From the NCBI GenBank assembly GCA_021790115.1, contig JAJYIM010000006.1, positions 1-59,849 on the forward strand: DNA of 59,849 bases, given 5' to 3'. This DNA is from Actinomycetes bacterium (GTDB lineage Bacteria > Actinomycetota > Thermoleophilia > BMS3ABIN01). The position numbers and the translations under genes were made by a program. How positions within the stretch are numbered: position 1 is the stretch's first letter; each line of letters opens with the position of its first letter. Shown one piece after another: positions 14,932 through 59,849 of the stretch. A model generated the notes under the pieces. That model saw only the letters and a list, made by a program, of their open reading frames with translations. It had not been told where the DNA came from and searched no databases.

Positions 14932-15115
14932 TAAGAGCCTATTTCGATAGGTAATTCGTTGCGAGGTCGAGCGAAAAGGCGATGGGCAAGGACGCAGGAG
15001 AAAAAAGCCCGCAGTCGTACCTGTACGGTACGTCGAGGACTTTTTGCTCCGAGGACGCAGCCCATGGTCTTTGCAGCCGGCCGCAGCAGAATACGCCTAT
15101 CGAAATAGACTCTAA
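14932..15115 (+). mobile_element. Full-length MITE-like palindromic repeat, subfamily B
   Basis: About 184 bp. Ends: AAGAGCCTATTTCGATAGG and CCTATCGAAATAGACTCT. The interior carries the common core (GGCGATGGGCAAGGACGCAG ... GGACTTTTTGCTCCGAGGAC) with its central hairpin CGTACC-loop-GGTACG. The ends differ from the other subfamily while the core is the same. It occupies the gap between pyrG's promoter and the ferredoxin stop. Confidence 0.9.
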
Positions 15116-15130
15116 GCCTGCCTCAATCCA

Positions 15131-23679: not shown

Positions 23680-23859
23680 AGAATCTATCTCAAAAGGCTC
23701 TTCGTAGCGAGGCCGAGCGAAAAGGCGATGGGCAAGGACGCAGGAGTAAAAAGCCCGCAGTCGTACCCCTGCGGTACGTCGAGGACTTTTTGCTCCGAGG
23801 ACGCCGCCCATCGCCTTTGCAGCCGGCCGCAGCAGAATATGCCTTTTGAGATAGATTCT
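23680..23859 (+). mobile_element. Full-length MITE-like palindromic repeat, subfamily A
   Basis: 180 bp, AGAATCTATCTCAAAAGGC to GCCTTTTGAGATAGATTCT. The whole unit folds on itself: GGCGATGGGC pairs with GCCCATCGCC, TAAAAAGCCC with GGACTTTTTG, and CGTACC with GGTACG around a 5-nt loop. This copy has the best pairing of the outer core. It sits in the nusB-accC gap. Confidence 0.92.
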
Positions 23860-23905
23860 AATGATATATTCCTTAATTTGCACCAATTTCAGACATTAGT
23901 AACCA

Positions 23906-44904: not shown

Positions 44905-44958
44905 TGCCATCGGCTCTGCAGCCGGCCGCAGCAGAATATGCTTTTTGAGATAGATTAT
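44905..44958 (+). mobile_element. Half copy (right arm) of the MITE-like repeat
   Basis: CTCTGCAGCCGGCCGCAGCA through GCTTTTTGAGATAGATTA matches only the right arm of the full element. It abuts the complete copy at 44960, as if one element inserted at or recombined with the end of another. Confidence 0.75.
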
Positions 44959-44959
44959 T

Positions 44960-45140
44960 AGAATCTATCTCAAAAGGCTGTTCGTAGCGAGGCCGAGCGA
45001 AAAGGCGATGGGCAAGGACGCAGGATTAAAAAGCCCGCAGTCGTACCCGCTGCGGTACGTCGAGGACTTTTTGCTCCGAGGACGCCGCCCATGGTCTTTG
45101 CAGCCGGCCGCAGCAGAATATGCTTTTTGAGATAGATTCT
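44960..45140 (+). mobile_element. Full-length MITE-like repeat overlapping the dgkA-PAP2 stop
   Basis: 181 bp, AGAATCTATCTCAAAAGGC to GCTTTTTGAGATAGATTCT, central hairpin CGTACC-CGCTGC-GGTACG. Its last two bases (CT on this strand, AG on the other) form the last two letters of the TAG stop of the adjacent gene. Confidence 0.92.
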
Positions 45141-45855
45141 AGTACCAAAACTGGAACAGCGCCGTAGTGACAAGTATTCCCAAAACCGCTCCCATAAATG
45201 CTTCATAAACTGTGTGGATTCCTGACTCTACGCGGCTTTGCGCCACCAGAAACGCCATTAAAAAAGCCAGCAGGGAGATAAGCAGCCCGTGAGCCAGTTC
45301 CAGCTGGGCGGAAACGTACGTGATTGCAGTCCAGCAAGCGAAAGCGGCAGCGCTGTGGCCGGAAGGCATGCCGCCGGAGAAAGGGGAGCCACGGTGGAAA
45401 AACGCCTTCACCAGGATGACCACCAACATGACTAACACCAGCGCAATGACGGTTAGGTGCGCCGGAGACTGCCGGACGACATGAATCAGATTTTTTGACG
45501 GCTGCTGCAGCTTGTCATAAAAAATAAGGTAAGCAACGACGAGAGCATTCAAGGCTGCGATCAGGACTGCGCCCGCGGCAACATCCTTGGCGATCTTCGC
45601 CGCCGGGTCAAAGGCGGTGCCAAACGTGTCAATCGCCGCTTCCACCGCTGTGTTTATCATCTCGGCAATCAGCACGAAGCTGATAGTTATCAACAACACT
45701 CCCAGCTCTATCCGGGAAAGGTTGAAAAACAGGCTGGCGACGATAACGCCAAAAGCGACGGCGAAATGAATCTTCATGTTGCGCTGCGTGCGCAGCACGT
45801 AAACAATGCCTTCAAAGGCCCAGGTGAAGCTTTTTAGCGTGCTGCGCCGGTACAT
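45139..45855 (-). CDS. dgkA: Undecaprenol/diacylglycerol kinase fused to PAP2 phosphatase
   Basis: A 238-residue membrane protein. The DgkA part (1 to about 115) has FEGIVYVLRTQRNMKIH, ISFVLIAEMINTAVEAAID and DPAAKIAKDVAAGAVL, the catalytic pattern of the Gram-positive undecaprenol kinase. The C-terminal half is a membrane PAP2 phosphatase: KAFFHRGSPF, GGMPSGHSAAAF and a SRVESGIHTVYEA third motif. Kinase and phosphatase in one chain could cycle undecaprenol and its phosphate in wall synthesis. The stop codon is formed with the border of a MITE, so the C-terminus may have been trimmed or altered by insertion. Confidence 0.92.
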   Translation of the reverse strand: MYRRSTLKSFTWAFEGIVYVLRTQRNMKIHFAVAFGVIVASLFFNLSRIELGVLLITISFVLIAEMINTAVEAAIDTFGTAFDPAAKIAKDVAAGAVLIAALNALVVAYLIFYDKLQQPSKNLIHVVRQSPAHLTVIALVLVMLVVILVKAFFHRGSPFSGGMPSGHSAAAFACWTAITYVSAQLELAHGLLISLLAFLMAFLVAQSRVESGIHTVYEAFMGAVLGILVTTALFQFWY

Positions 45856-49726: not shown

Positions 49727-50185
49727 TCACTGCAGCCTGCCCTTAACCATGCCGCTCACCTTTTTCCCATCCGCCCTGCCGGCCGTGCGCTTCATAACCG
49801 CCGACATAACTTTACCCATATCCTTGACGCCGGATGCGCCCGTAGCGGCAATTGCCTCGTCGACGATGCCCTCAAGATCACTTTCGCCAAGCTCTTGAGG
49901 CAGGTAAACATCAATGATCGCCGCCTCCGCTTCCTCGCCGGCGGCACGGTCCTCGCGGCCGCCGCTGCGGAACGAAGCCGCCGCCTGCTGGCGCCGTTTC
50001 TTCTCCCTCCTAAGAACGGCTATTTCCTCCGCCTTGCCAAAACCTGGCCGGGCCTCTTTGCCGGCCAGCTTTAATTCGCTCAGGATCATGCGCAGCGCCT
50101 GAACCCGCTCCTTGTCACGCGCTTTCATGGCGTCAACCATGTCCTTTTGCACCTGCGCCGTAATGCTTTGGCTCTCTTCCGGCAT
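49727..50185 (-). CDS. yqeY: GatB/YqeY domain protein
   Basis: A 152-residue helical protein: KDMVDAMKARDKERVQALRM at the start, and VDEAIAATGASGVKDMGKVM then GRADGKKVSGMVKGRLQ at the end, as in the tRNA-binding tail domain of GatB. Its function when free-standing is not settled. The region usually holding rpsU next to it is empty here. It lies 9 bp after the HIT gene. Confidence 0.92.
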   Translation of the reverse strand: MPEESQSITAQVQKDMVDAMKARDKERVQALRMILSELKLAGKEARPGFGKAEEIAVLRREKKRRQQAAASFRSGGREDRAAGEEAEAAIIDVYLPQELGESDLEGIVDEAIAATGASGVKDMGKVMSAVMKRTAGRADGKKVSGMVKGRLQ

Positions 50186-50194
50186 TTGCGTTTC

Positions 50195-50545
50195 CTATCC
50201 CACCTGGCCAAAACCCAGGGATTTACCAGCAATCAAATGCCAGTGCAGATGAAAAATAATCTGGCCGCCGCCGCGGCCGACGTTTGTAATCACGCGGTAG
50301 CCAGGCTCAACCACATCCAGTTTTTCGGCGACCTGGACAATAAACTCGAGCATGTTCAGGCAAAACCCATTATCAACCTGGCCAATCTCGTTAAGCGACC
50401 TGATGTGCCGTTTTGGCATCACCAGAATATGAACCGGCGCTTTTGGATGAGCATCCTTGATTGCCAGAAAGTCATCATTTTCCAAAACCTTTTCTGAGGC
50501 CAGCGATCCTGCAATAATTTGACAAAAGATACAATTATCTGTCAA
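50195..50545 (-). CDS. HIT-family hydrolase (HinT-like)
   Basis: A 116-residue nucleotide-binding hydrolase. N-terminal CIFCQIIAGSLASEKVLEND with the zinc-type CxxC, APVHILVMPKRHIRSL, and the histidine triad HLHWHLIAG. Likely acts on purine nucleoside phosphoramidates. It overlaps mtaB by 4 bp. Confidence 0.94.
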   Translation of the reverse strand: MTDNCIFCQIIAGSLASEKVLENDDFLAIKDAHPKAPVHILVMPKRHIRSLNEIGQVDNGFCLNMLEFIVQVAEKLDVVEPGYRVITNVGRGGGQIIFHLHWHLIAGKSLGFGQVG

Positions 50546-51792
50546 AAGGCTCTCCCTCTTTGATTGACCATCTTTCCCAAAACAGCCTCGCCGCTGACAG
50601 CCTCGGCGCGGACATTGGCCAGACCCGCCCCGTCCGCGTGCGAAACCAGGAAACGGGTATAATCTGCGCTGTAACCGCCAAAAACCCCCGGCTTAACCGC
50701 AGACTCCAACAGAACTTCGCTTAAGCCGCCAACTTTCCTTTGCCGGTGCCGGCGTCCCAGGCGCCGGGAAAGCGCCAGCAGTTGTTGGCTGCGGCGCTTC
50801 TTTTCCGCCGCCGGCACGGAATCATGGAGTTTGATTGCCCTCGTCCCTGGCCGCGGCGAGTAAGAGAACCCGTGCACTTTGGAAAATCCCTCCGCGGCAA
50901 TGAAATCAAGCGTGTTTTTAAAAGCGCGCCCATCCTCGCCGGGGAAACCAACGATAACATCAGTTGTCAAATTAACCCCGGGCAGCGCCCGCCGCGCAGC
51001 AGCCAGCCTGCCAGAAAACTCCCCGCAATCGTAGCGGCGCCCCATTGTTTCCAGCACGCGGTCATCGCCGCTTTGCAGGGGGACGTGCAAATGAGGACAG
51101 ATCACCTTGCCGGCCACCATTGTTTCGAGCAGTTCCGGGCTTAAATGGACCACCTCCACAGAGCTGAGGCGTAGTCGCGCCAGCCCATCAATGCGGGCAA
51201 GCCGTGTGAGCAAATCCGCCAATTTGTGATTGCCGTCGCGCCAGGCGCCAACGTCAACGCCGCAGACAACAATCTCCGGGCAGCCTTTCTCGACAACGGC
51301 GCGGGCCAGCGCCAGCAACTGCACCATGGGCAGGCTGACCGGCCTGCCTCTCACCAGCGGCACCACGCAGTATGCGCACATGTTGGCGCAGCCGTCCTGA
51401 ATTTTGAGGAAAAAGCGGGTGCGGCCGGCCAAGGTCTTCATTTCATTATGAAATCGTTCCCCGGGCAAGCTTGCCGTTTGGCTCTTGCAAATCACGAGTG
51501 GTTTTTTACCGGCGGGGCCGGGCAAAACCGTCACATTCTTGCCAATAGCCTCGAACGGCCCCGCCGCCAGCCGCGCAGCGCAACCGGTCACAAAAACGCG
51601 GCCCTCCGGCCCAACCCTTCTGAGGGCGCGACGCACCTCCTTGCGTGACTGCTTCTCCGCCGCGCCTGTAACACAGCAAGTCCCAACCACTTCCACCGGC
51701 GGACCGGTTTCGAAAACAATCCTTGCCGCGGCGGCCTGGGTATCAGAAAAATTGACTTTACAGCCTAATGATTTAACGTTAGTTAATTTCAT
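50542..51792 (-). CDS. mtaB: tRNA methylthiotransferase MtaB
   Basis: A 416-residue radical-SAM enzyme that adds a methylthio group to t6A37 in tRNA. The N-terminal cluster domain has Cys in SLGCKVNFSDTQA, GTCCVTGAAEKQSRKEVRRA and VFVTGCAARL. The radical-SAM motif is DGCANMCAYCVVP. Then RLSSVEVVHLSPEL, HLHVPLQSGDDRVLETMGRR and a C-terminal TRAM-like part. Overlaps the HIT gene. Family assignment to MtaB rather than MiaB rests on the neighbourhood and the short N-terminus. Confidence 0.93.
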   Translation of the reverse strand: MKLTNVKSLGCKVNFSDTQAAAARIVFETGPPVEVVGTCCVTGAAEKQSRKEVRRALRRVGPEGRVFVTGCAARLAAGPFEAIGKNVTVLPGPAGKKPLVICKSQTASLPGERFHNEMKTLAGRTRFFLKIQDGCANMCAYCVVPLVRGRPVSLPMVQLLALARAVVEKGCPEIVVCGVDVGAWRDGNHKLADLLTRLARIDGLARLRLSSVEVVHLSPELLETMVAGKVICPHLHVPLQSGDDRVLETMGRRYDCGEFSGRLAAARRALPGVNLTTDVIVGFPGEDGRAFKNTLDFIAAEGFSKVHGFSYSPRPGTRAIKLHDSVPAAEKKRRSQQLLALSRRLGRRHRQRKVGGLSEVLLESAVKPGVFGGYSADYTRFLVSHADGAGLANVRAEAVSGEAVLGKMVNQRGRAF

Positions 51793-51844
51793 CTCTTATC
51801 TCAAAAAAAGAAAGGCGCAGTTAAAAATCGCATCGTGTATTTCC

Positions 51845-51868
51845 AGTATCCACCATCCACCGTCCGGT
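51845..51868. repeat. Heptad stretch running into the rsmE stop
   Basis: Plus strand ATCCACC ATCCACC after CCAGT, then GTCCGGT, merging with the TTA that is rsmE's stop on the minus strand. About four degenerate 7-bp units. Confidence 0.55.
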
Positions 51869-52596
51869 TATCCCAGCTTCCCCAGCCGGTGCAAGGCTAT
51901 CGAGGCAGCCACGAGCGCTGCCGTCTCAGTCCTTAAAACTTTTGCCCCTAAACTGGCAAAGCAGGCTCCGGCATCCTTGAGCAGAATTATTTCTGCATCT
52001 GAAAATCCGGCCTCCGGCCCCACCAGCAGAGCCAGCGGCGGTTTTACGCCGGCAACCGCCTCGCCCAACGGGAAGCCCGCAGTTTCTGTCGCCAGCGCGA
52101 TCACGGGCCCGGTAAAGACAGCCAGCCAGCTGCCGATGTCAACAGGTTCATCGACGTCCATGACAGACGGCCGGCGGGATTGTTGCGCCGCCGACCTGGC
52201 GATCCTGCGCCAACGTTCCAATTTTCTTGTGGCGCCGTCTATCCGCGGGATTACCGATTTTTCAGTGTATAGCGGAACCAGCCGCGCGGCGCCGATCTCG
52301 CTCAGCTTTTCCACAACCATCTCCAGCTTGCGGCCTTGGGGCAAGGCCTGCGCTACCACCAGCTCAGCCCCATCGGCATTGCCGGTTATCTCGTTGACCA
52401 CAGTTGCCTGCACAAGATCTTCAACTCCGCAAACTTCAGCGAAAAAAACGCGGCCGTCACTTCCTGCCAGCTCGAGCCTGTCCCCGGCCTTCAGCCTCAG
52501 CACCCGGGCGGCGTGGAAAGAATCCTCCTTTCCCAGGCAGACTCGTTGGCCGGCGGCGACGGGGCGGGAGACAAAAAAACGATGGACGTGCTTCAT
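51868..52596 (-). CDS. rsmE: 16S rRNA (uracil-1498-N3)-methyltransferase
   Basis: A 242-residue SPOUT methyltransferase. N-terminal PUA-like domain (KHVHRFFVSRPVAAGQRVCL), EMVVEKLSEIGAARLVPLYT, ARSAAQQSRRPSVMDVD and the knotted SAM site LALLVGPEAGFSDAE with LGAKVLRTETAALVA. Length and order are typical. It follows dnaJ with a 55-bp gap; prmA, often between them, is absent. Confidence 0.95.
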   Translation of the reverse strand: MKHVHRFFVSRPVAAGQRVCLGKEDSFHAARVLRLKAGDRLELAGSDGRVFFAEVCGVEDLVQATVVNEITGNADGAELVVAQALPQGRKLEMVVEKLSEIGAARLVPLYTEKSVIPRIDGATRKLERWRRIARSAAQQSRRPSVMDVDEPVDIGSWLAVFTGPVIALATETAGFPLGEAVAGVKPPLALLVGPEAGFSDAEIILLKDAGACFASLGAKVLRTETAALVAASIALHRLGKLG

Positions 52597-52651
52597 CTTG
52601 GTTTCCAGTCAAAACCGAAGGCGGAATTCTGGTAATGCCAAAATTCAACCG

Positions 52652-53770
52652 TTACTTAAAAGCCGCCTTCAGTTTTTCAAACAGCCCCTCATCACGGGCG
52701 TAATTTTTTTCGGTTGTCACGCCGTCAAACTGCTTGAGCAGCTTTTTCTGCTCCGCATTCAGATACTGGGGAATCATCACATCCATGATGACTTTCAGGT
52801 CTCCCCGGCCACGGCCGCGCAGAAACGGCATGCCCTTCCCTTTGACAACCTTTAGCTCACCTGGCTGCGTGCCTGCTTTGACCACAATTTTTTCTTCGCC
52901 ATCAAGAGCAGGCACACTTAGCGATGTCCCCACGGCGGCATCAACCATCGTTAACGGCAGATGATAAATAAGGTCGTTGCCATCCCGGATGAGCTGCTCG
53001 TGCGGCTCAACCTCCACCTGGACATATAAATCCCCGGGCCTGCCTCCCTTTTCCCCGGCGCTCCCTTTCTCCAGCAGGCGGATGCTCTGCCCATCGGCGA
53101 TGCCCGCCGGTATTTCAACTTTCAGCCGCTTGTGGACCGCGGCCAGCCCCCGGCCGCGGCAGTCAGGGCATGGTTTTTCGACTGTGCTGCCCGTGCCGCC
53201 GCAGCGCAGGCAGGCGCCCCTTTGAACAAACTGGCCGAAGGGAGTCCTGTGCACGCTCTGAACCTGCCCGGAGCCGCCACAGGCGCTGCATGTCCGCCGC
53301 GATGTCCCGGCCGCGGCGCCCGATCCATTACACGCTTCGCAGAAATCAACCGCCTCGTACTCAACCTCCCGGCGAACCCCCTGGGCCGCCTCACTTAGAG
53401 ATAGCTTGACGGCGACGGCCGCATCCTGCCCCTTGACCGGCCCTCCACGCGAAAAACCAAATAAATCTTCGCCAAACAGGGAGTCGCCAAAGAAAGAGCG
53501 AATGACATCCTCAAAAGAAAACTGGGAAAAATCCTGGAAGCCACCCCGTTTCAAGCCGTCGTGGCCATAACGGTCATAGGTCGCCCTGGTTTCCGGATTA
53601 CTGAGGACCTCGTATGCTTCAGCCGCCGCCTTGAATTTTGCCTCGGCCTCCGGGTCATTTTTATTGACGTCCGGGTGGATCTGCCTGGCCAGCGCTCTGA
53701 ATGCTTTCTTAATGTCCTTTGGCCCGGACGTGCGAGGAACACCAAGAATCTCGTAATAATCACGTTTCAT
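52652..53770 (-). CDS. dnaJ: Chaperone DnaJ
   Basis: About 372 residues. J domain [20 protein letters not shown] with the HPD of [10 protein letters not shown], a Gly/Phe linker ([22 protein letters not shown]), four zinc-binding CxxCxGxG repeats ([32 protein letters not shown]) and the C-terminal substrate domains. I use the ATG at 53770 (MKRDYYEIL), because the ribosome site AGGA is too close to the ATG three codons earlier. grpE and dnaK, normally between hrcA and dnaJ, are missing here. Confidence 0.96.
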
Positions 53771-53850
53771 TTCATTCATATTCCTGTATCAAATACTGCT
53801 AAAAGTATGCATCCTGTCAAAAAGAAAAATCTGACGACTATTTTTATCCA

Positions 53851-53888
53851 GCTATCCAGCGTCCAGAACAGGGATCTGGCATCCACTT
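53851..53888. repeat. Heptad stretch at the hrcA stop
   Basis: Plus strand ATCCAGC, TATCCAGC, GTCCAGA, ATCTGGC and ATCCACT, ending in the TTA that is the hrcA stop on the minus strand. The units are degenerate and one spacer base is inserted. An AT-rich tract lies upstream as in other copies. Confidence 0.55.
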
Positions 53889-54909
53889 AATTATAAATCT
53901 CTTCCACATAGTGACTCAGGGAGCGGGCTGTGCGTTCGACGTTAACAATGGCGCTCTCATAATTCATGCGTGTCGGTCCCAGAACGCCGACCGTGCCCAG
54001 ATTACGATGGCCAAGCCCGTAGTTGGCCGCCACCAGGCTGAGATTGCGCATCGCCGCCGTCGGCATTTCGCTGCCAATCAGTAAATAAACGTGCTGCTTG
54101 ACAAGCGCTGAGCGCAGCAGCCTGAGAATCTCTTCTTGCCTGTCCAGCAATCTCATCAGGCCTCCCAGCCGGCCGTTGCCATCCTCCTCCATACGGGAAA
54201 AGAATGCGGAAACCCCATCAAGATAGAGGCTGCCCATGCCGCCGTCAGGCAAATCAATAAATGCGGGGGAGATCGCCTTTAAGAACTCGGTTTCCACCCC
54301 GGAGGCTCCCTCATGCAGACGCAGTTTGAGCCTGCGGCTGCCCAGGTCAAAATCACAAACTGCCTCGTTCAGATAACCGCACGCCCAATCAACCAGTCCC
54401 GGATCTACCGGCGCTTCAAACATGAACAATCTCTTGGCGACGTTGCCTGAGGCAGTAATAATAACCACCATGATCAAATCCGGGTGCAGCCTGAGCACTT
54501 CTACGTGTTTGATAGAACCGCTGCCATGTGATGGCGCCGACACCAGCGCCAGCAGCCCCGTCGATTCAGCCAGCATGCCGGCTGACCGTTTCAGGGCATC
54601 TTCTATTTGAGCCCCCAGCTCACCCGGCTCAACCGTCCTGGCCAGACGCGGGCGCCACCGTTCCTGGAAAAAGACGTCAACGTAAAAACGGTATCCCTTG
54701 TCGGTCGGCACCCTGCCGGCGGAAGTATGCGGATGATCAAGATACCCCATCTCTTCCAGACGGGCCAGCTCGCCGCGGACGGTAGAGGGGGAAATTCCAA
54801 AATCCCCAGTCTGGCAAAGATATTTGGAGCCCGTGGGCCTGCCCGTGGTGATGTGGTGCTCAACCACGGCAATCAGCAATTTTTCCAGTCTCGATGTAAT
54901 GCCGTCCAT
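53887..54909 (-). CDS. hrcA: Heat-inducible transcription repressor HrcA
   Basis: A 340-residue repressor. N-terminal winged helix: LIAVVEHHITTGRPTGSKYL and ISPSTVRGELARLEEMGYLDH with HTSAGRVPTDKGYRFYVD. The GAF-like and dimerisation domains end in GVLGPTRMNYESAIVNVERT. It normally represses at CIRCE inverted repeats together with GroE; I see no CIRCE upstream of this gene or of dnaJ. Its upstream gap is filled by a full MITE, so it depends on readthrough from hemW or on a promoter within the repeat. Confidence 0.96.
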   Translation of the reverse strand: MDGITSRLEKLLIAVVEHHITTGRPTGSKYLCQTGDFGISPSTVRGELARLEEMGYLDHPHTSAGRVPTDKGYRFYVDVFFQERWRPRLARTVEPGELGAQIEDALKRSAGMLAESTGLLALVSAPSHGSGSIKHVEVLRLHPDLIMVVIITASGNVAKRLFMFEAPVDPGLVDWACGYLNEAVCDFDLGSRRLKLRLHEGASGVETEFLKAISPAFIDLPDGGMGSLYLDGVSAFFSRMEEDGNGRLGGLMRLLDRQEEILRLLRSALVKQHVYLLIGSEMPTAAMRNLSLVAANYGLGHRNLGTVGVLGPTRMNYESAIVNVERTARSLSHYVEEIYN

Positions 54910-54932
54910 GAAAATTGCAGCTCAGGCGCCTG

Positions 54933-55115
54933 AGAGCCTATATCGGTTAGGCGTATTCTGCTGCGGCCGGCTGCAAAGACCATGGGCTGCGTCCTCGGAG
55001 CAAAAAGTCCAGGGCGTACCGCAGCAGGTACGACTGCGGGCTTTTTACTCCTCGTCCTTGCCCATCGCCTTTTCGCTCGGCCTCGCAACGAATTACCTAT
55101 CGAAATAAGCTCTTA
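54933..55115 (-). mobile_element. Full-length MITE-like repeat, subfamily B, overlapping the hemW stop
   Basis: 183 bp in reverse orientation. Ends GAGAGCCTATATCGGTTAGG and CCTATCGAAATAAGCTCTTA. The core reads GGTCTTTGCAGCC in reverse with the central GTACC...GGTAC hairpin. Its outer TTA is the TAA stop codon of hemW. Confidence 0.9.
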
Positions 55116-56231
55116 ACCGCCGGCGCCGGTTTCCTCCCAGTTTTGCAAAAGACGCGCACAGACTTCATTGGCGGCAAAACGCCCGGCGCGCGTCAAATAT
55201 ATTTTACCACCCACAGTCTGCAGGAATCCATTTCGCAGCAGGAGATTTAACTGAACGTAGTCAAACATCCCCTCATAACCGGCCATTGATATCCCCTGCT
55301 TAAGGCGCAACCCCAGCAGCAGCCGCTCGGCAGCTTTTTGCGGGGGGGCAAGCTCTTCCCAATGCCTCTCCCGCATAAATCCGCCGCCGACATAGCGGTC
55401 GATGTCCTCCGGGTTGCGCCAGCGTTTCAAGCCGACTGTGCTCCAGGCCCCCGCCCCCAGACCCAGATAATCGGCGCCGCGCCAGTAGGCCAGATTGTGG
55501 CGGCACTCCCATCCGGGCAACGCAAAATTGCTGGTCTCATACCATTTATATCCAGCATCTTCCAAGATGTCAACAACCGTTTCATAGTAAAGCAGGCTGA
55601 CGGCTGATTGCTGCTTAAGCTCCTCTTCCCAGCGCCGCTGAAAAGCACTGCCCTCCGCAACAGAAAGTTCGTAGCAGGAAACATGTTTTGGCTTAAGCGC
55701 CACTGCCCGGCGCACATCGTCCTTAAGATCAGATGCCGACTGGCCAGGAACGGCGAAGATCAAGTCCAGGCCCAGATTAACGATCCCGGCCCCAAACAGC
55801 ACATTGACTGCAGGCTCTACAGCAGCCGCGCTTCCCGCGCGGCCCAGATTCGCCAGCAGCCGCACATTGAAACTCTGCACTCCCAGTGAAACCCGGTTCA
55901 CACCTGCAGCCGCCAGCTCGCCGGCCAGCCGGGGCGTAACTGTAGCGGGATTCGCCTCCACGGTCACTTCGGCGCCGGCAGTCAATCTCTCTGTGAGCGC
56001 CGCCAGCAGCCTTCCCAGCAAATCTCCCCCGAGCAAAGTTGGCGTGCCCCCGCCCAGATACACCGTCTCCAGAGCGCCAAACAAGGGAGCCGCCTCTTGA
56101 AGCTCGCAAAGCAGCGCCTCAACGTACGCCGGCGCCAGCGCCAGTGAGCCGGCGGTGGAATAAAAATCACAATAACCGCAGCGCCTGGCGCAGAAGGGCA
56201 GGTGAATGTATAAATGGTTAACCTTCACCAT
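55113..56231 (-). CDS. hemW: Heme chaperone HemW (coproporphyrinogen oxidase-like)
   Basis: A 372-residue radical-SAM protein. Starts VKVNHLYIHLPFCARRCGYC with the cluster motif CARRCGYCDF, then YLGGGTPTLLGG, EANPATVTPR, RVSLGVQSFN and ISCYELS-like VSCYELSVAEGS. The C-terminal HemN-like winged domain has YLTRAGRFAANEVCARLL. Family members bind heme and hand it to respiratory enzymes. The extra Cys of true HemN is absent (CDFYSTAG). ATG at 56231 is preferred to that at 56246. The stop codon lies within the MITE border. Confidence 0.93.
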   Translation of the reverse strand: MVKVNHLYIHLPFCARRCGYCDFYSTAGSLALAPAYVEALLCELQEAAPLFGALETVYLGGGTPTLLGGDLLGRLLAALTERLTAGAEVTVEANPATVTPRLAGELAAAGVNRVSLGVQSFNVRLLANLGRAGSAAAVEPAVNVLFGAGIVNLGLDLIFAVPGQSASDLKDDVRRAVALKPKHVSCYELSVAEGSAFQRRWEEELKQQSAVSLLYYETVVDILEDAGYKWYETSNFALPGWECRHNLAYWRGADYLGLGAGAWSTVGLKRWRNPEDIDRYVGGGFMRERHWEELAPPQKAAERLLLGLRLKQGISMAGYEGMFDYVQLNLLLRNGFLQTVGGKIYLTRAGRFAANEVCARLLQNWEETGAGG

Positions 56232-56316
56232 GGCCGAAAACTGCACAAACCTGGTCCGGGATTTAACTTCTATGTTATCATTGCACTTGATATGTCATTT
56301 ACTCCAATGGAGTTTT

Positions 56317-56497
56317 AGAATCTACCTCAAAAGGATGTTCGTAGCGAGGCCGAGCGAAAAGGCGATGGGCAAGGACGCAGGAGTAAAAAGCCCGCAGTCG
56401 TACCCGCTGCGGTACGCCCTGGACTTTTTGCTCCGAGGACGCAGCCCATGGTCTTTGCAGCCGGCCGCAGCAGAATATGCCTTTTGAGATAGATTCT
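56317..56497 (+). mobile_element. Full-length MITE-like repeat upstream of the kinase-PqqD-B2 operon
   Basis: 181 bp, AGAATCTACCTCAAAAGG to GCCTTTTGAGATAGATTCT, with the central CGTACC-CGCTGC-GGTACG hairpin. It fills the space between hemW and the divergent operon, ending 13 bp before the first ATG, so that operon's promoter must be inside or beyond it. Confidence 0.92.
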
Positions 56498-56510
56498 AAG
56501 TCCCCAGCGC

Positions 56511-57611
56511 ATGACATCGATCATTGATTTTAATCAGATGGGCGATCCACTTTCCGCAGGTGACCTGGCACGGCTGAAAATGCAGTCTTTTCCGGATGAA
56601 CTGATTGTTGGTTCATTTGACGTCCACGGAATCAAGACCCGGCTGGTTACCGACTCGCCCGCGATAGCCGGCGCCGTTGGCCAGATGCTCAGCGCGTTTA
56701 AGCTTGATGACAATAACGGCAGCTCCGCGCCTGACATTGAGGTGCTGCTGTTTACAGTAGACGCCCTCGACGAAAAAACAGCATTCGTGCCGGCAGATAC
56801 GCCGATGTTGTATGATTGGGACGCGATCAAGATTTATTATTCGGAAAACCGCAGATACCTGCAGATGGGCTCACAGGCATGGGTATGCGCCGATATCAAG
56901 GAGCGCCTGGCGGCGGGATTTGTCCAGCGCGGCATCGTGGAATCCGGCTGGCTTATTGCGCATCAAGTCTTTTTCCCGCTCTGGGGGCAGCTGCTGAAGG
57001 AGTGCGGAATTTACCCGTTCCATGCCGCCGGGCTGGTCAAAAATGGCAAGGCCTTGCTTTTCCCCGGGCGCAGCGGCAGCGGCAAATCCACCTTGACGCT
57101 CCGCCTGGTTAAAAGCGGCTACCGGCTGCTGGGCGACGACATGGTTTTTTTACGCCAAGTCAACGGCAAAGTGGAGGCGCTCTCGTTCCCGGAAGACATT
57201 AACGTTACCGGTAAAACCCTGGACTTGTTTCCTGATCTGGCAAAAGTTAAAAATTTTACCGAAAATAAGCTGAGGCAGAAGTCCTCTTTCTCCATCGAGG
57301 AGCTGTACCCTAGCTGCGTGACGGATAGTGAAGTGCCGTCGCTGCTGGTATTTCCCGAAATCACTGGCTCGAGGAATACGGTATTATTGCCGATGAGCAG
57401 GACCGAGGCGCTGGCTTTTTGCATGCGGTTCGGGTTATTTTTTATAGACCCGTCAACGACCGGCAAAAACTTTGAGCTGCTTTCGCAACTGGTCCGGCAG
57501 GCCGGTTGCCACCGGATGCGCTCCGGAACGGATCAGGAGCCCCTTGAGCGCGCCGTTGACGGTTTGCTCAAACAGGAACCCAACCAGTCAGCTGGCGAGA
57601 GGGAAGAATGA
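56511..57611 (+). CDS. HPr-kinase-like protein, first gene of a RiPP-type operon
   Basis: A 366-residue protein. The N-terminal 165 residues have no motif I can name. A P-loop domain follows: GKALLFPGRSGSGKSTLTLR (about 181-200), then GYRLLGDDMVFLR, the acidic pair typical of HPr kinase/phosphorylase-like proteins, and EALSFPEDINVTG. Such kinases are linked to lasso-peptide clusters (in paeninodin one phosphorylates the C-terminal Ser) and to PqqD/B2 genes in polysaccharide clusters. The start is uncertain: the ATG at 56511 lacks a ribosome site. Its stop overlaps the PqqD gene start (ATGA). Substrate unknown. Confidence 0.82.
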   Translation: MTSIIDFNQMGDPLSAGDLARLKMQSFPDELIVGSFDVHGIKTRLVTDSPAIAGAVGQMLSAFKLDDNNGSSAPDIEVLLFTVDALDEKTAFVPADTPMLYDWDAIKIYYSENRRYLQMGSQAWVCADIKERLAAGFVQRGIVESGWLIAHQVFFPLWGQLLKECGIYPFHAAGLVKNGKALLFPGRSGSGKSTLTLRLVKSGYRLLGDDMVFLRQVNGKVEALSFPEDINVTGKTLDLFPDLAKVKNFTENKLRQKSSFSIEELYPSCVTDSEVPSLLVFPEITGSRNTVLLPMSRTEALAFCMRFGLFFIDPSTTGKNFELLSQLVRQAGCHRMRSGTDQEPLERAVDGLLKQEPNQSAGEREE

Positions 57612-57910
57612 TAAATAAAGAAAATTACCTGATCAAGGATACCGAAGTTTTGTTTACCTCCATGGGAGAAGACGCCGTGCTGCTGCATGTTCAGCGCGGT
57701 GACTATTACAGCTTAAACCGGGTCGGCGCCCGCGTATGGGTGCTGTCCGACGGCAGTAAAACTATCCAGGATCTCGCCATGACAATTACCGAGGAATTTG
57801 ACATATCGCTGGAGCAGGCGGAAAAAGATATTGCCGAGCTGGCCGAACAGCTGCAAAAAGAGGGCCTGGTGACAGTAAGTGAAGCTCCTCAGGATTCTCA
57901 GCCGGCTTAA
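57608..57910 (+). CDS. PqqD-like RiPP recognition element protein (lasso B1-like)
   Basis: A 100-residue protein of the PqqD fold: HVQRGDYYSLNRVGARVWVL, DGSKTIQDLAMTITEEFDIS and DIAELAEQLQKEGLV, a full winged helix. PqqD-like proteins bind leader peptides and present them to maturation enzymes; as a separate gene beside a B2 protease it corresponds to lasso B1. A short tail EAPQDSQPA follows. Its start overlaps the kinase stop (ATGA) and its end overlaps the B2 gene by 32 bp, so the three proteins are tightly coupled. Confidence 0.88.
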   Translation: MINKENYLIKDTEVLFTSMGEDAVLLHVQRGDYYSLNRVGARVWVLSDGSKTIQDLAMTITEEFDISLEQAEKDIAELAEQLQKEGLVTVSEAPQDSQPA

Positions 57911-58367
57911 AGACCCGCGCGACCTCTGGCTCTTCCTCCGGGTCTTGACAATGTTGGTAATTCTTCCCCGCAAGATCGATCGTCTCAGCCTGCCCACTCT
58001 GCTTAATGATATTGACCCGGAGGTCAGCAGTGTTCCCCAGGACAATGTGAAACTCGAAAAAACGGTAGGGTTTGTGGATTCGCTGCTTAAGTACCGCATC
58101 TTCCAACGCTACGGAAAATGCCTGCTGCGCTCGCTGGTCCTCTTCCGTTTGCTGCGCCTGCAGGGTTGGCCTGTGTCAATTTATTTTGGCGTGCGCAAGA
58201 CGACAGGCGCTGTTGCCGAGCCGGCAAGCAGCATCAGCCTAACCCGCAATTTCGACATCACCGGCCACAGCTGGCTGGTTCTGGACGGACAGCCCTTCCT
58301 GGAATCAGACCAGGAGAAATTTGCCACCACGTTCATTTTCCCAGAACACAAAGTCGCGGCATCGTAG
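57879..58367 (+). CDS. Transglutaminase-like leader protease (lasso B2-like)
   Basis: A 162-residue protein from a GTG start. Residues 1-75 are helical and hydrophobic (DLWLFLRVLTMLVILPRK). The protease core has YGKCLLRSLVLFRLLRLQGW with nucleophile Cys81, YFGVRKTTGA, then the catalytic His130 and Asp136 in TGHSWLVLDGQPFLE. This is the Cys-His-Asp pattern of lasso B2 proteases, which cut the leader from the precursor. All three residues are intact. The next gene is convergent, so the operon ends here without a cyclase (asparagine-synthetase-like) gene. Confidence 0.88.
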   Translation: MKLLRILSRLKDPRDLWLFLRVLTMLVILPRKIDRLSLPTLLNDIDPEVSSVPQDNVKLEKTVGFVDSLLKYRIFQRYGKCLLRSLVLFRLLRLQGWPVSIYFGVRKTTGAVAEPASSISLTRNFDITGHSWLVLDGQPFLESDQEKFATTFIFPEHKVAAS

Positions 58368-58463
58368 CCAGAACAAGCAACGTCCGCATTAGGCTGGAAA
58401 CTCTCCAGGCGACGGCTTCATTTTTGCCAATTTGATATGAAGTCCGTTTTTGGTGAGATAAAA

Positions 58464-59849
58464 CTAGCCCGGGTACTTCAACAACTGGCCACTGGCTCCG
58501 ACACCCGTGGCGGAGACATTTGTAACAAACTCAACAACGCCAGACGGTATCTTGTAAACGACAGTGAATGTCTTCGAATCTCCAGCTGCGAGATCACCAA
58601 TCATAAGCGGCAGGCTGTTGGTTGCCTTTACTCCCATTGAAGCGGTTACAGAATCAATGCTCACCGAGCTGGCCTGGCTACTTCCCTGATTCTGCATTAT
58701 AAATTCGACTGTCAATTGTCCGCTTAAGTAATCTTCGTAACTTTTCCAGTAAGCCGCTTGCTGATTTAAGGCCAGATTCGGCGATGCCACACCAGGCAGG
58801 ACCAACTGGTAGTCGCTGCTTACGGATAAGTTGCCGTTGGCGTCCCGGCTCTTTACCTGGAACGTATATGTGCTTCCCGGCTGCAAGCCCGTCACCTGAA
58901 TCGAATGCTGTTTGGCCAGGGCTGCCGCCGAGCCGACTTCATTCCAGTCTCCGCTCGGGCTGTTTGGATCCCAGGGCCCGTTGGGATTAAGAATATCAAC
59001 CTCTGAGTCTGAATCGGTATCAGTAGTCCACGTGATCTGGGCATCTCCGCCGCCAGATGTAGTTGTTGCTGTAACAGCAGAGATGTCAGGGCCGCCACCG
59101 GGAGAACCATGAAAGAGGTCAATGCGGTAGCTATCGCTCCATGTGGTTCCAGCAGAGAGCCACTTGTACCTAGAGCCAGTTGGCGGATTCCCGCCCCACC
59201 AAGCCATCCAGTTCATATCCTGAGCGCCCGTAACGCCACCCAATTCTGAACATTGTTCTTCCATCGGATCAGCCCCCGTCCCCCAAACCTGTACTCCCAG
59301 TTGATAAGAACCGCTGCCCCGGAAGCCCAGCCCGTTGTTGTCGGCAGTCATCTTCACTGTCGGCGCCACTGCTGATCCCGTTAACGCCGCCCAATCAGGC
59401 TGAAAACGATTTAGATTATCCCAAGACGCAACGATTTCATTTTCAATGTGATCGTGGCCCAAGACGTACGTGTCTGAATTTGGCGCCAGCCAGTTCCGTC
59501 CATATTTACTGAAACGATCCCAACCGGCATAGTAACTCCAACCCGACCGATCCGCCATTTCCGAGAAGTAACCAGACGCCAGCAGTTTCCAATTAACGCT
59601 CTCATGTATGGCGCCGCTCGGTTCCACCGTCCAGGTCTTGGTTACGCTGTACCAGTCCTTGCCGGTTGACTGGTTATGAATATTATAGACAAATGTCAGA
59701 ACTGCATTTCCTTGACTGTCTATAATGGCTGAATGTGATATCAACGTCCCACTGGCATTATTGTCAGAAATCACATCCGTGAAAGAATTAGTCCCGGAAG
59801 GACCAGGTGGCGTATCAGTTGCGTACATGTCGGTCCCGCCCACACCGCC
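58464..59849 (-). CDS. Large secreted FN3/CARDB-like protein, 3' part (cut by the window edge)
   Basis: About 461 residues are in the window; the frame is open to the edge, so the start lies outside. The N-terminal part is a beta-rich region (VLTFVYNIHNQSTGKDWYSV, SGWSYYAGWDRFSKYGRNW). A fibronectin type III domain follows (DISAVTATTTSGGGDAQITW; VTGLQPGSTYTFQVKSRDAN). The last 100 residues look like a CARDB-type domain (VEFIMQNQGSSQASSVSIDS; GDSKTFTVVYKIPSG). No anchor or sorting signal is seen at the C-terminus. Likely extracellular, binding or enzymatic role unknown. It converges on the kinase-PqqD-B2 operon. Confidence 0.75.
   Translation of the reverse strand, partial: GGVGGTDMYATDTPPGPSGTNSFTDVISDNNASGTLISHSAIIDSQGNAVLTFVYNIHNQSTGKDWYSVTKTWTVEPSGAIHESVNWKLLASGYFSEMADRSGWSYYAGWDRFSKYGRNWLAPNSDTYVLGHDHIENEIVASWDNLNRFQPDWAALTGSAVAPTVKMTADNNGLGFRGSGSYQLGVQVWGTGADPMEEQCSELGGVTGAQDMNWMAWWGGNPPTGSRYKWLSAGTTWSDSYRIDLFHGSPGGGPDISAVTATTTSGGGDAQITWTTDTDSDSEVDILNPNGPWDPNSPSGDWNEVGSAAALAKQHSIQVTGLQPGSTYTFQVKSRDANGNLSVSSDYQLVLPGVASPNLALNQQAAYWKSYEDYLSGQLTVEFIMQNQGSSQASSVSIDSVTASMGVKATNSLPLMIGDLAAGDSKTFTVVYKIPSGVVEFVTNVSATGVGASGQLLKYPG

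Follow-up and report, generated by a model that had tools for sequence, protein, structure and literature searches.

What would a lasso-type kinase, peptide-recognition protein and peptidase act on when no cyclase and no precursor is encoded beside them? This question is raised by an operon near the end of the window, that is, the whole stretch of 59,849 nucleotides analyzed, which is an entire contig (C58) of a 1.81-Mb genome in 63 contigs that is 97.6% complete. An earlier note on this DNA had described three overlapping genes, with hemW divergent upstream and a secreted FN3 gene convergent downstream, and had proposed a cyclase-independent pathway whose substrate is encoded elsewhere. On rechecking, the three open reading frames, their coordinates and both overlaps proved exact, the coordinates and strands of the two flanking genes confirmed their arrangement, and neither a cyclase nor a precursor was present in the window. 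The features discussed here are the following:

53887-54909, minus strand: hrcA; the operon has kept its place next to hrcA and hemW across the family
55113-56246, minus strand: hemW, the divergent neighbor (domain search, family locus comparison)
56309-56506, no strand assigned: copy of a dispersed palindromic repeat in the hemW-kinase spacer, outside the pathway (repeat comparison)
56511-57611, plus strand: HprK-like kinase, 366 aa (domain searches, ortholog alignment, AF2 model)
57608-57910, plus strand: PqqD-like RiPP recognition element (RRE), 100 aa (PF05402, RRE chain matches)
57879-58367, plus strand: B2-type transglutaminase-like cysteine peptidase, 162 aa (PF13471, NF033537, ortholog alignment)
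58464-59843, minus strand: secreted FN3 protein gene, convergent, running off the contig end (domain search)

The kinase and PqqD genes overlap by the ATGA at 57608-57611, and the PqqD and B2 genes by 32 bp (57879-57910). The kinase matches the HPr kinase C-terminal domain and TIGR04352 (HprK_rel_A, 59.7 bits), in both cases under the cut-off. It contains the P-loop GRSGSGKST at residue 186, His171 and the pair Asp209-Asp210; the P-loop is invariant in the alignment of family orthologs, and an AF2 model built from the family alignment (pLDDT 83) has a clear PEPCK/HprK-type fold (Foldseek E 5e-11). The PqqD protein scores 67 bits with PF05402 (cut-off 23.4), falls under the cut-offs of the lasso-specific PqqD models and matches the TbiB1, PbaB1, TfuB1 and LppB chains.

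The B2 protein exceeds the cut-offs of both PF13471 (46 bits, cut-off 26) and NF033537, lasso_biosyn_B2 (38.9 bits, cut-off 33). It had been described as a Cys-His-Asp protease, and Cys81 and His130 are indeed present and invariant in an alignment of 17 orthologs. The Asp, however, is not conserved: position 136 varies (D/N/E/S/A), as it also does in the lasso B2s of the class, and the invariant acid is Glu142, so that Asp136 is unlikely to be the third catalytic residue. The AF2 model of B2, again from the family alignment, has a pLDDT of 83 and a weak structural similarity to transglutaminase-like proteins; a PDB sequence search with B2 returned no match.

The distribution of the operon was analyzed in 299 genomes of the class, comprising 19 of the window's family (as grouped by the genome collection used for the sample) and 280 others. 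It should be noted that MAG contigs are short, so some gene absences may be assembly gaps. Eight contigs, all from MAGs of uncultured Actinomycetota (titles include Actinomycetes bacterium, Thermoleophilia bacterium and BMS3Abin01), carried close relatives of B2, and the same search gave one weak match in a Halomonas contig. In the sample, B2 is encoded by 16/19 family genomes versus 23/280 others, and the operon PqqD by 17/19 family genomes, the two without it being 69% and 78% complete. When the unit was compared across relatives, as the earlier note had advised, hrcA-hemW emerged as its constant neighbors and the order was kinase, PqqD and B2. The three-gene description holds for this genome, but in most relatives B2 is immediately followed by DUF2079 as a fourth gene. 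Exceptions are one genome (G030) in which B2-DUF2079 is displaced ~20 kb from kinase-PqqD, and another (G048, 92% complete) in which B2 was not found despite the presence of the kinase, PqqD and precursors.

The match of the three parts to lasso B1, B2 and kinase, with the cyclase and precursor not adjacent, could mean that a lasso cluster has shed both and is decaying toward disappearance, and the kinase gene of one relative is indeed split (L014/L072). A cyclase and precursor beside the operons of close relatives had been named as the sign of such a loss; none of the family loci showed an asparagine-synthetase-like gene or a precursor next to the operon (available flanks, up to ~10 kb). Outside the family, nearly all of the 20 B2 loci read carry an asparagine-synthetase-like gene within the same flanks. 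In the tree, a branch supported at 99/98 separates the family B2s, which sit on a long stem, from the others. Moreover, seven genera carry the cyclase-free unit at one and the same place in the chromosome, its active-site residues are invariant, and the dN/dS values of the kinase, PqqD and B2 genes range from 0.09 to 0.27 (NG86; window versus three congeners), with similar values for hemW and hrcA. Decay is contradicted by this family comparison and is extremely improbable. Given its conserved site and order, its family-wide presence and a dN/dS well below 1, the operon is a maintained, cyclase-free unit and not a broken lasso cluster.

Where, then, are its substrates? Within ~10 kb of the operon, no conserved small ORF carrying a YxxP motif could be detected; the sole conserved motif matches there were methyltransferase-like ORFs. 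The candidate precursors were reached via a second kinase locus. A kinase-profile search of genomes sampled across the phylum detected a second kinase paralog in 7/7 sampled family genomes (here at C32:23579-24583, 327 bits), and one to three small precursor genes lie beside it in 6/6 genomes read. The precursor gene beside the C32 kinase encodes MAVKKSDHREPYAKPELVKHDNLKDLTFECANWSCSVTVPSAPQ and has homologs in relatives. A profile built from the small genes at this locus matched 19/19 family genomes, with E-values down to 2e-29, and 0/280 others of the class, an occurrence that coincides exactly with the family. The consensus is REPYAKPELVKHxNLKxxTFECxxWxCSVxVPxxP. Family genomes contain 4 to 12 matches each; the 12 of this genome are all outside the window, on contigs C2, C8, C12, C16, C22 (two), C30, C32, C38 (two), C39 and C52. 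Both the peptide encoded elsewhere and the short ORFs with a Thr close to the end of the leader that the earlier note had envisaged are thus present, in all family genomes and, within the class sample, specifically in that family. No description of the operon or of the peptide family was found in the literature searched.

All 43 distinct precursors have the RRE motif YxxPx[L/V/I], followed by a Thr at position 16 counting from the Tyr (15 after it) in 42/43; the remaining one has the same pattern but was matched from an extra upstream Tyr. This YxxP leader and Thr are those of a lasso-type precursor, although the '-2' numbering of the Thr assumes the predicted cleavage site, and one of the peptides exceeds the cut-off of the NF033521 lasso-leader model. 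A few cores are truncated, short or divergent. The dipeptide CS is found in 40/43, and the Ser of CSV is the only invariant core Ser in the aligned set. Since their ribosome-binding sites are good and their median dN/dS is 0.19 (115 pairs), the precursors behave as real genes. Their core, ECxxWxCSVxVP, is conserved as strongly as the leader, which is unusual for a RiPP.

The leader also corresponds to the pocket of the operon PqqD. The leader is bound in LppB as follows (PMC13381572): D70 forms a bond with its Tyr, the kink at its Pro is held by N33 and V35, and F74 contributes to the walls of both pockets. In an ungapped alignment, N37, V39, D74 and L78 of the operon PqqD fall on the LppB positions N33, V35, D70 and F74, respectively, and all four are invariant in 16 family proteins. 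PbaB1, a paeninodin-type, Trp-taking RRE, has Gln in place of this Asp. As the RRE Asp pairs with Tyr-type leaders, the Tyr-type leader of the dispersed peptides fits the operon PqqD pocket. From this motif fit and the family-wide co-occurrence, we strongly infer a link between the operon and the peptides, keeping in mind that the operon has no adjacent precursor and that shared ancestry alone could yield both co-occurrence and motif fit. Judging from these comparisons, the three genes probably form the core maturation operon, acting in trans on dispersed precursors, of a RiPP system without a cyclase. The cyclase-independent pathway put forward in the earlier note is supported in that no cyclase lies in the available family flanks, the B2 Cys/His and the kinase P-loop are invariant, and precursors exist.

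We also considered whether this could be a lasso pathway whose cyclase acts in trans, an AsnB-like paralog closing a ring on the dispersed peptides. The earlier note had proposed to look for a cyclase in the rest of the genome, and two asparagine-synthetase-type proteins are indeed encoded there. The second AsnB-type protein of the family genomes sampled starts with MSG rather than MCG (Cys2->Ser; on C20 here) and is therefore without the glutaminase Cys. Lasso cyclases are likewise not known to carry it. This MSG protein is nevertheless close to true AsnB, its E-value against a profile built from the genome's two AsnB proteins being below 1e-250, versus mostly 1e-8 to 1e-59 for the lasso cyclases of the class, and its gene sits among glycosyltransferase and radical-SAM genes. 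The Asp/Glu at core positions 7-9 used by the lasso ring was found in 0/43 precursors, whether they are cut after the Thr or one residue later. A trans-acting cyclase is therefore very unlikely. With no macrolactam cyclase in the cluster and no ring-forming core acid, this is not a lasso pathway, despite the presence of a B1-type RRE and a B2. Loci for the Cys2->Ser protein (C20:1-1597, L021; L096-L105) are mostly near true AsnB, SPASM proteins and glycosyltransferases.

The fourth gene of the relatives points in another direction. DUF2079 is GT-C-like, its ortholog is present in 15/19 family genomes, and in most relatives it overlaps or nearly overlaps the end of B2 and precedes glycosyltransferase and polysaccharide genes. 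In this genome, contig C45 begins with a fragment of the ortholog, after which come glycosyltransferases of the same kinds as in the relatives. The operon might then serve surface-glycan assembly together with DUF2079 and these glycosyltransferases, on a protein or another substrate and not on the dispersed peptides. Against such a role stand the retention of an RRE pocket for a YxxP leader and the co-occurrence of exactly such a leader family, and clusters for LPP (linear polyphosphorylated peptides) and paeninodin also occur in capsular polysaccharide loci (PMC13381572). We consider this explanation unlikely, if less so than a cyclase in trans, and return to the maturation of dispersed precursors.

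Among known systems, the closest comparison is LPP (Popov et al. 2026), a tested pathway with an RRE and an HprK-like kinase whose phosphopeptide product is linear because there is no cyclase; LppK phosphorylates a core Ser and LppS cuts after the Thr (PMC13381572). The system described here likewise combines a discrete RRE with an HprK-like kinase, lacks a cyclase, is expected to yield a linear product and is associated with glycan loci. For NTP_transf_5, also a gene of LPP clusters, the picture is mixed: it lies near many members here, the domain being over the cut-off in 11/19 family genomes and on the operon's contig in 9/11, but is absent from this genome. Furthermore, the Tyr, Pro, His and Thr of the LPP leader, YxxPxVLxHQxIxFETxxS, and of the leader here, YAKPELVKHxNLKxxTFEC, are identically spaced. 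There are also differences. In place of the SpI-like LppS there is a B2 cysteine peptidase, with no SpI/SipW-like gene in the operon; no counterpart of the MsbA-like transporter was seen; the precursors lie outside the cluster and are dispersed, multi-copy and conserved in their core; and relatives have DUF2079 as a fourth gene. LPP is patchy in Bacillota, whereas the present system is vertically inherited in one actinobacterial family. Lacking an SpI-like leader peptidase, it is not a strict LPP cluster, and it seems best read as operating in the manner of an LPP pathway in which the lasso peptidase has been retained.

The phosphorylated lasso pathway of the paeninodin type has the same types of B1, B2 and HprK-like kinase, a YxxPxL leader and a Thr before the core. 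It differs in having a macrolactam cyclase, an acidic residue at core positions 7-9 and a Trp-type Gln in its RRE, where the operon protein has the Tyr-type Asp. In prochlorosin biosynthesis, a single maturation enzyme set (ProcM) acts in trans on many scattered precursors. The arrangement proposed here is similar in this respect, but the enzymes and chemistry are different, the core is conserved as well as the leader, and the precursors are paired with secreted proteins.

In the proposed pathway, PqqD would bind the YxKPx[L/V/I] leader of precursors encoded elsewhere in the genome, at as many as a dozen or so sites. The HprK-like kinase would phosphorylate the core, most likely at the conserved Ser of CSV, as would the second family-wide kinase paralog beside its one to three precursor genes. 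It should be noted that the core carries Cys, not Ser, at the LPP phosphosite position. The B2 peptidase would remove the leader at the conserved Thr, cutting either one residue beyond it (Thr-x, the lasso pattern) or directly behind it (the LPP pattern). The linear peptide set free in this way, which contains Cys, would probably be exported, although no transporter was identified for the pathway, and would act with the secreted protein whose gene lies immediately upstream. DUF2079, and the NTP_transf_5 protein of many relatives, would add a glycosyl or nucleotidyl group. The order and sites of phosphorylation and cleavage, the export and the final function are predictions of this scheme.

A pairing with secreted proteins was observed at 40/48 distinct precursor sites (9/12 in this genome; hand count, duplicate loci removed), where the precursor gene lies 24-123 bp behind a secreted-protein gene on the same strand. 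These partners end in one common C-terminal domain of ~105 aa and otherwise differ, being multiheme cytochrome-like, rhodanese-like, Ig-like or unassigned. The FN3 protein of the window (58464-59843) carries the same C-terminal domain, with no precursor beside it. This domain often ends in YP or YPGPxP (window FN3; L156-L172) and may be a sorting or anchoring domain. Because most peptides pair with a secreted protein that has the shared domain, a role at the cell surface rather than as an antibiotic is suggested. More speculatively, the pairing suggests that the mature peptide acts with, or attached to, the proteins encoded upstream.

Whether these elements define a new RiPP class, in which a cyclase-free kinase-RRE-B2 hub matures conserved, dispersed linear peptides, each serving as partner or tag to a secreted protein with the shared C-terminal domain, is in our view an evenly balanced question. 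If true, this class would be a peptide-assisted surface-protein system and part of the core biology of an uncultured actinobacterial family. The orphan operon becomes a testable pathway with named substrates, and the case suggests that B1/B2 machinery of the lasso type can be retained to serve non-lasso peptides that are inherited vertically. With RRE-Finder, almost 8,000 best matches to the discrete-lasso-RRE model were obtained, of which only ~4,000 co-occur with a peptidase and a cyclase (PMC7470986); the operon illustrates in detail one possible function of such 'orphan' RREs.

Two further PqqD proteins are encoded in this genome, on C39 and C57, each beside its own, differently built precursor. 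The C57 locus (C57:1-2200, L023) is a second cyclase-free set, cut by the contig edge, that consists of a 35-aa peptide, MEGKTKEAYESPVIEEIDLEESFSFGMPPVASPFI, with the leader motif YESPVI, an HprK-like kinase, a PqqD and a GT2. This peptide was rejected as a substrate of the operon, as it is unique to this genome and has its own kinase and PqqD. The C39 locus (L024; relatives L123, L124 and L125) is a radical SAM system with a PqqD, a SPASM radical SAM protein and a Cys-rich precursor (YRAPAVERVPLVAEEAVLFNCKC...) of its own, which in L024 contains ...RPYRAPAVERVPLVAEEAVLFNCKCQ.... The relatives' loci of this type add an HprK-like kinase and an S24/S26-type peptidase gene, and for this reason they are possibly LPP-radical SAM hybrids.

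An Rfam search of positions 50000-59849 gave no match. The hemW-kinase spacer is filled by one copy (56309-56506) of a partly palindromic repeat of ~190 bp, which is also found in the window at 54949-55092, 44958-45141, 23680-23861 and 14955-15116, and in L160 and L161. The copies are 91-97% identical and occur in both orientations, and the repeat looks like a MITE or REP-type element.
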